Shown one piece after another: positions 42,022 through 43,167 of a stretch of DNA of 64,000 bases (positions within the stretch are counted from its first letter, which is position 1; each line of letters starts with the position of its first letter). The translations under genes were made by a program, and so were the position numbers. Source of the stretch: Phycisphaera sp. (GTDB taxonomy: Bacteria > Planctomycetota > Phycisphaerae > Phycisphaerales > UBA1924); NCBI GenBank assembly GCA_025916675.1, contig CP098402.1, positions 2,785,205 to 2,849,204 on the forward strand, read 5' to 3'. A model generated the notes under the pieces. It had not been told where the DNA came from. It did not search any database and saw only the letters and a program-made list of their open reading frames with translations.

Positions 42022-42792
42022 TCACTCGCCTAAAAGGGCGCTGATCTCGTCCTCGACGGGGTTGGACACCTTGCGGGTGGGCTTGGCCTTCTTGTCGTCC
42101 TCGCTCTCGCTGGTCGTCTCCACGTCGTCGTCGTCATCGACACCCGTGTCGGCGGCGTCGAGCTTGGCGATCTGGGCGTCAAGCTCGGCGTCGGACTTCG
42201 CCTCGGCGGCCTCGTCCTTGGCCTTCTGCCGCTTGGCGGCCTCGACCTTGTTCTTGTCGGGCGCAAGCACGATGCTGGCCTGACGCATGACCCAGCGCGG
42301 GGCCATCTCGACCTTGGCGATGTCGGCGAGCTGGTCGACGATCTCGGCCAGGCGCTCGATGCCCAGTTCCTTGTGGACCATCTCGCGGCCGCGGAAGCGC
42401 TGGGTGATCTGCACCTTGTGGCCCTGCATCAGGAATCGCCGCGCCTGGTTCACGCGGATCTGCACGTCGTGGGGGTCGATCTTCACCGACCGACCGAGGC
42501 GCACTTCCTTGATTTCCTGCTGGCCCGTGGTCTTGTTGTCCTTGCGCTTGGACTGCTCGTACTTGTACTTGCCGTAGTCCATGATCTTGCAGACCGGTGG
42601 CCGCGTGTCGGGCACGATCTCGACAAGGTCGAGCCCGGCCTCCTGGGCCATCTGCATCGCTTCGCGCGTGTCGACCACGCCAACCTGCTCGCCCTCGGCC
42701 CCGATCAACCGGATGGGGCTGATGCGGATCATGTGGTTGACCCGGGTGCGTTGCACGGGGCCGGCGTCGCGGTAAAACCTTCGTCCTCGGAT
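42022..42792 (-). CDS. infC: Translation initiation factor IF-3, apparent AUC start codon
   Basis: Binds the 30S subunit and rejects wrong start codons. I place the start at ATC 42792: AAGGAG lies seven bases before it and the reading then gives IRGRRFYRDAGPVQRTRVNH, matching the extended N terminus of planctomycete IF3. The first AUG/GUG in frame (GTG 42756, ATG 42732) would cut that segment and has no ribosome site. Core: NHMIRISPIRLIGAEGEQVG, DLVEIVPDTRPPVCKIMDYG, KYKYEQSKRK, IKEVRLGRSVKIDPHDVQIR and RGREMVHKELG. A 65-residue acidic tail follows the core. Non-AUG infC starts are the basis of IF3 autoregulation in E. coli (AUU). rpmI and rplT do not follow; a terminator does. Confidence 0.93.
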   Translation of the reverse strand: MRGRRFYRDAGPVQRTRVNHMIRISPIRLIGAEGEQVGVVDTREAMQMAQEAGLDLVEIVPDTRPPVCKIMDYGKYKYEQSKRKDNKTTGQQEIKEVRLGRSVKIDPHDVQIRVNQARRFLMQGHKVQITQRFRGREMVHKELGIERLAEIVDQLADIAKVEMAPRWVMRQASIVLAPDKNKVEAAKRQKAKDEAAEAKSDAELDAQIAKLDAADTGVDDDDDVETTSESEDDKKAKPTRKVSNPVEDEISALLGE

Positions 42793-43167
42793 GGGTGTTC
42801 TCCTTCGGGGGTGCCAGCGTCAGGCCGGCCGATTGGTCACGCCGGTACACACCGGCAACATCATCTGGATTCTGCCGCCCCCACCACAGCGGTGAGAGGC
42901 AACCAAACGCTCACGACGGGGCGTCAACCCCACCACGGCTTTCGTGCGACCGGGCCAACCAGCCGGGACAAAGCCCAAACCAGACATCGGTTGATGGTGA
43001 TGGCCGCTCAACTCGGGCGGCTCATGCTTCTTGCCACGCCGTAGAGAATAACAGATCTCCAGCCGCCGAGCAAGCCAATTTGTCGGGGGTACTCCCCACA
43101 AATTGCAAACCACCGAGCGAGATCGGGTGTTCCAAGATGCGTACAAATGCCCAATCTGCCGGCAAAA
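42793..43167 (-). other. 375-base leader and promoter region of infC
   Basis: Between the kinase stop and infC. A weak promoter (TTGCTC, 17 bases, TATTCT, minus strand, 43045-43073) would give a leader of about 245 bases. An open minus frame here (42820-43146) encodes an unconserved His/Arg/Gly-rich peptide and I do not call it a gene. AT-rich spots at 43075-43105 contrast with the GC-rich surroundings. Confidence 0.4.

Follow-up and report, generated by a model that had tools for sequence, protein, structure and literature searches.

An AUC codon as the probable start of infC in Phycisphaerae, and candidate ACG starts in two other planctomycete orders

The infC gene starts with ATT in Escherichia coli and with ATC in Streptomyces, and both starts are presented in PMC5472188 as an example of self-control by IF3. 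The same source describes infC as misannotated in most Streptomyces species. An ATT start of infC is reported as experimentally confirmed in Listeria (PMC13068326), and in Xanthomonas one has been deduced from peptides (PMC5559785). According to Katoh and Suga, Watson-Crick pairing at the first two bases is required by IF3, and weak pairs at the third base are poorly tolerated (PMC10158994).

Here, infC is described from a stretch of 64,000 nucleotides of the Phycisphaera sp. contig CP098402.1, which is called the window below. The gene is very probably translated from an AUC codon at 42792 on the minus strand, behind a strong and well-spaced Shine-Dalgarno (SD) sequence, with IF3 presumably acting by feedback on its own level as in E. 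coli. This start would settle where an essential protein probably begins, a point that gene finding restricted to NTG codons places 12 codons too late. IF3, the factor that rejects wrong start codons, would itself apparently begin at a wrong-looking AUC.

The infC start site of the window

The infC reading frame occupies positions 42022-42792 of the minus strand and comprises 256 codons from the AUC plus a TGA stop (42024-42022), which is in frame with the ATC at 42790-42792. Translation from this ATC gives IRGRRFYRDAGPVQRTRVNHMIR. The product is IF3: it exceeds the curated cut-off of the NCBIfam equivalog TIGR00168 (187.8 bits, cut-off 60), contains both Pfam domains (IF3_N, PF05198, 107.5 bits; IF3_C, PF00707, 92 bits) and matches a solved IF3 chain, 8jsg_A, with an E-value of 6.7e-41. 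About 76 C-terminal residues, 23 of them Asp or Glu, extend beyond the IF3 domains (42022-42252, minus strand). In the genus and in many members of the family, this tail ends in a motif like NPVDDEIADLLGE.

A sequence-only reading of the window had placed AAGGAG seven bases ahead of the ATC, and the letters confirm it. The SD motif (42800-42805, minus strand) is separated from the start codon by the spacer AACACCC (42799-42793), forms a duplex of -9.0 kcal/mol with the anti-SD and is invariant in all seven sequences of the genus. One exact match to the 16S 3' end expected to carry the anti-SD, GGATCACCTCCTTTCT, is present in the genome, the 16S gene being recognised by pattern only. Folded alone, the 31 nt from 42820 to 42790 are nearly open (-0.5 kcal/mol).

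Upstream, the frame is closed by an in-frame TGA (42820-42822, minus strand). The nine codons between this stop and the ATC (CGC TGG CAC CCC CGA AGG AGA ACA CCC) include neither NTG nor ATH. From the ATC, the frame continues as ATC CGA GGA CGA AGG TTT TAC CGC GAC GCC GGC CCC up to GTG 42756 (42754-42756, minus strand), the first standard start codon. If the AGG codons are set aside, no codon between the upstream stop and this GTG is a near-cognate of AUG except ATC 42792. The codons for RGRRFYRDAGP (42757-42789, minus strand) are conserved in the genus and would be lost under a GTG start. The sequence-only reading had associated RRFYRDAGP with planctomycete IF3. The stretch is indeed kept in 7/7 genomes of the genus and partly in the family, which makes it characteristic of the genus and of some near relatives, but not of planctomycetes at large.

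An SD motif followed by ATC says little in a single sequence. AAGGAG-N5-9-ATC occurs twice in the window against 1.21 matches expected, a count reached by 35 of 100 shuffles, and AAGGAG-N5-9-ATG occurs once against 1.05 expected. The motif was therefore rejected as stand-alone evidence, and conservation across relatives must decide.

Start codons of infC in Phycisphaerae and beyond

The survey covered 239 different genomes: 7 of the genus, 70 of the rest of the family, 64 of the order, 9 of the class and 89 of the rest of the phylum. The loci are a part of the genome-search matches, taken by score order and spread over families rather than drawn at random; these searches returned no infC match in 3/41, 0/7, 4/234 and 8/201 genomes. 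Starts were assigned by a free caller that considers eight codon types at least five codons before the IF3 core and scores SD strength. ACG was excluded in the first calling round and allowed in later ones.

Among the 150 Phycisphaerae genomes, the free caller chose ATC in 112, ATT in 20, ATA in 9, ACG in 4, ATG in 3 and GTG in 2, so that AUH was called in 141. After resolution, the numbers are AUC 116, AUU 20, AUA 9 and AUG 5, giving AUH in 145/150; the four ACG calls were assigned their AUH codon, and the five AUG genes were set by hand from the alignment. In three of the ACG calls, an ATC one codon further on has an equal score; in the fourth (G337), an ACG at six codons from the core reaches -7.8 and an ATC at 18 codons -5.9. 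A caller variant that also allows codons 1-4 before the core makes 10/150 non-AUH calls, compared with 9/150 otherwise. The SD spacing is 5-9 nt in 142 of the 145 AUH genes.

Since the caller scores SD strength, these counts and spacings lean toward SD-supported codons, and two controls address this bias. When the same caller was applied to rplT, ATG stood at the aligned start in 30/30 relatives; it was chosen in 28 and tied in two, where a neighbouring codon of equal score was taken. In the codon-blind test, the strongest SD before the IF3 core was located and the in-frame codons at the distance expected of a start were counted, start codons not being chosen. ATC was found at the SD-spaced position in 106/150 genomes but in only 4/150 in an equal control stretch downstream; for ATT, the corresponding numbers were 17 and 0.

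The residues behind the AUH codon point in the same direction. Ala or Ser at residue 2 is typical of true N-termini, and 106 of the 145 AUH genomes have one of the two there. Within the genus, every base of the first five codons from the ATC is identical in 7/7 genomes. As 32% of 97 degenerate columns are identical in the genus, the identity of codons 2-5 has a chance probability of roughly 1%, and a constraint on the codons themselves is only suggestive. The AUH assignment is unsure in three genes with a weak SD (G129, -3.9; G118, -3.7; G352, -4.9) and in four genomes in which the codon lies 36-41 codons before the core (G030, G378, G250 and again G352).

The window infC is thus headed by a near-cognate codon other than NTG, in frame and SD-spaced, and a non-AUG infC start is conserved among its relatives in the 150 Phycisphaerae genomes. 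The alignment with other Phycisphaerae proposed in the sequence-only reading had this outcome: the N-terminal residues are kept in the genus and the start is read as AUH in 145/150 genomes. Together with the codon-blind enrichment, this conservation supports AUC as the start of infC.

The five family genes read as AUG (L015, L016, L018, L179 and L185) imply that a non-AUG start is not indispensable. In 5/5 of them, the SD lies 12-13 nt from the start codon, compared with the 5-9 nt usual for AUH genes. The AUG assignment is unsure in G008, where a GTG at 31 codons scores -10.4 against -6.4 for the AUG, and in G388, where a GTG at 24 codons (-3.2) and an ATG at 6 (-3.0) compete with -1.9. The AUG genes are nested inside an AUH clade and go back to one or two origins, with two changes on the best tree and one in 38% of bootstrap trees, so that they do not count as five independent events. 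The displaced SD suggests that weak initiation is the thing being kept.

Outside Phycisphaerae, single start calls are less sure. The raw calls for the 89 other Planctomycetota are ATC 27, ATT 15, TTG 14, ACG 11, GTG 9, ATG 8, ATA 4 and CTG 1. In one draft genome of this phylum (L131, G214), infC has an SD-like stretch and no usual start at the expected place, where GCA was read by eye. A further 80 named loci from many phyla gave AUH 64, ACG 11, GTG 2, ATG 1, TTG 1 and CTG 1, from which it follows that AUH starts of infC are widespread and that the window case is ordinary in kind. Of these 11 ACG calls, two (L294 and L295) combine the expected position with a strong SD; they correspond to G112 and to the same stretch as G417, respectively, and are not counted again among the ACG genes below. 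Nine remain: in L355 an ATC one codon further on has an equal score, and in the eight others the ACG is 2-3 codons away from the core, L324 scoring -6.2 and the others less strongly.

In two planctomycete orders outside Phycisphaerae, infC appears to start with ACG. The order of G054 is represented by 14 genomes, 13 of them with infC, and 12 of these 13 genes were seen by eye to carry an in-frame ACG behind a GGAGG-like SD (L043, L046, L049, L284-L288 and L290-L293). In the second order (that of G068), ACG is present in 3/3 genes (L386-L388), two of which are identical over the stretch shown. All genomes of the ACG orders are drafts. In the 12 ACG genes of the first order, SD energies range from -7.4 to -11.1, no upstream NTG or ATH codon scores better than -3.4, and the first in-frame NTG downstream of the ACG falls within the IF3 domain, at codon 11 to 38. 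In L290 and L292, neither NTG nor ATH occurs between the upstream stop and the ACG. IF3_N starts at residue 8 in the two ACG-order proteins tested.

Controls of the same kind as above were available here. In the codon-blind test, ACG was found in 15/16 genomes of the two orders against 1/16 in the control. In the rest of the phylum (89 genomes, eight of these ACG genomes included) the numbers were 12 and 10, so that ACG is not enriched there at large. The rplT gene of the G054 order, found in 12 of the 14 genomes, has ATG at the aligned start in 12/12, with one tie. Counter-evidence comes from L292 (listed as L294), where an ATC at the first core residue has an SD-like stretch of -6.3, and G414 is the exception of its order, with TTG or ATT.

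We know of no case in which ACG is a conserved bacterial start, and a search over open-licence full texts brought up no infC described as starting with ACG. Gvozdjak and Samanta (arXiv 2008.10758) have reportedly described genes that prefer non-AUG starts, which may bear on the ACG infC. In the ACG orders, translation of IF3 would begin at a codon with a mismatch at its middle base. An altered anticodon of the initiator tRNA, or conversion of C to U in the mRNA, would account for ACG differently. It seems fairly likely, and less assured than the AUC start itself, that the infC start codon acts as an evolutionary dial on IF3 output: two orders would have moved to ACG and stricter feedback, while lineages that reverted to AUG would keep initiation weak through an SD at 12-13 nt. 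If true, the ACG starts would be a natural and conserved case of bacterial initiation with a middle-base mismatch, and they would open to test how weak an initiation codon may become while still being used, and whether co-evolution with it has occurred in IF3 or the initiator tRNA. The ACG groups and the group with AUG and long spacing would be the parts that surprise a specialist.

Promoter, leader and neighbourhood of infC

Apparently infC is transcribed from its own promoter, about 245 nt upstream. A putative promoter, TTGCTC-17-TATTCT (43045-43073, minus strand), was found by pattern match and would give a leader of about this length. The pattern CTTGY-N18/20-TAnnnT occurs within 420 nt upstream of infC in 55 of the 77 genus and family genomes, compared with 1.6 expected from shuffles, and may represent the group's housekeeping promoter type. 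A consensus scan for promoters and terminators listed neither for infC. A probable intrinsic terminator, a stem followed by a T run, lies behind the gene (41934-41963, minus strand; -14.2 kcal/mol, z-score -1.39). The next gene upstream, on the same strand (43168-44610, minus), encodes a Pkinase-type protein kinase (PF00069).

Just upstream of the SD, the leader contains two GC-rich (GCCGG) hairpins at 42813-42856 of the minus strand (42856-42841 and 42829-42813), a pattern at the level of the genus. By eye, sequence changes in some genus members preserve the stem of the downstream GCCGG hairpin. A leader block, ACCGATG, has an exact match in 6/7 genomes of the genus and in 2/70 of the other family genomes. 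The fold of 79 nt of the leader has a z-score of -1.04. As hairpins and ACCGATG block are kept in the genus and not in the family, no leader RNA element is claimed. A leader reading frame starting at the ATG of the ACCGATG block was rejected as well, since its frame is not kept within the genus: by eye, the indels are not multiples of three and early stops differ. Leader control of the L20 type, which acts on an infC-rpmI-rplT operon, finds no support at this locus: rplT (2456366) and infC (2827229) are about 370 kb apart in G000, and an Rfam scan of 41500-45000 for known leader RNAs returned nothing up to an E-value of 1.

Alternative readings, IF3 feedback and known systems

Translation could begin elsewhere in the frame. 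If it began at GTG 42756 or at ATG 42732, the sequence ahead would be an untranslated leader, and an ORF finder restricted to NTG codons does start the ORF at GTG 42756. Both codons are present in all seven genomes of the genus, and 50 of the 70 other family genomes have NTG where the ATG stands. This conservation fades with distance: NTG is found at the ATG position in 8/64 genomes of the rest of the order and 0/9 of the rest of the class, and at the GTG position in 15/70, 1/64 and 0/9 of the rest of the family, order and class, respectively. The GTG was held in the sequence-only reading to have no ribosome site, and its SD energy of only -1.1 kcal/mol, against -9.0 for the ATC, bears this out. 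Moreover, the residues ahead of the GTG are kept in the genus although several wobble bases differ, and 45 of the 145 AUH genomes have no NTG or CTG from the upstream stop to the IF3 core. Homologues beginning at the GTG or the ATG with nothing conserved before, which would have spoken against an ATC start, were not what the comparison revealed, and a start at either codon is very improbable. Still less credible, to the point of being negligible, is that the ATC is an internal isoleucine codon of a longer protein with a start further upstream. In some relatives the frame is indeed open for tens of codons ahead of the ATC. In the window, however, the TGA at 42822 shuts it 10 codons ahead, which refutes such a start here unless a codon other than NTG or ATH initiates. 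The frame is shut within 10 codons in 59/145 AUH genomes and open for merely 4 codons in three of the genus, and 73/145 have no NTG or CTG between the stop and the AUH codon.

With AUC 42792 as the start, the initiator tRNA would pair with the A and the U of the codon and not with the C. Because of this unpaired C, 30S complexes on the AUC would be among those destabilised by IF3. Abundant free IF3 would lead to rejection of its own mRNA, and scarcity of IF3 would allow this mRNA to be used; the IF3 level would thereby be held by feedback. An AUC start combined with a strong SD fits such a control. It might instead be argued that the AUC is the start and does no more than fix a low IF3 output, without any IF3-dependent feedback. 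The AUG genes with an SD spacing of 12-13 nt suggest that selection may act on low output as such. On the other side, PMC5472188 describes IF3 feedback on a non-AUG infC start in E. coli and repression of a non-canonical start by IF3 in Streptomyces, and the window protein is a complete IF3 in which neither domain is missing. A fixed low output is therefore considered unlikely, though less so than a start at another codon, and repression of the AUC start by IF3 remains the preferred reading.

The closest described system is the infC of E. coli, the same gene with a near-cognate AUH start and autoregulation by IF3 (PMC5472188). The codon is AUU there and AUC in the window, and the feedback, shown for E. 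coli in that source, would apply to the window infC by analogy. The infC of the window genome also differs in lying far from rplT. Streptomyces infC shares the ATC start in a different phylum (PMC5472188), and the expectation of the sequence-only reading that automatic annotation misses such starts agrees with what this source states on Streptomyces infC. In Staphylococcus aureus, Ribo-Ret data place infC at an SD-supported AUH start as well (PMC13009471), with AUA and an extended SD motif there, and AUC and AAGGAG with a 7-nt spacer in the window. Streptomyces sigR, with a GTC start repressed by IF3, has a non-canonical start that serves as an IF3-sensitive control; being a different gene, it is not a case of autoregulation (PMC5472188). 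The design of IF3 self-repression known from E. coli, whose start codon is recognisable in Streptomyces, Listeria and S. aureus, would thus extend to a class of Planctomycetota. The window infC is best read as a case of this known non-AUG infC design, and an AUC infC is already documented in Streptomyces.
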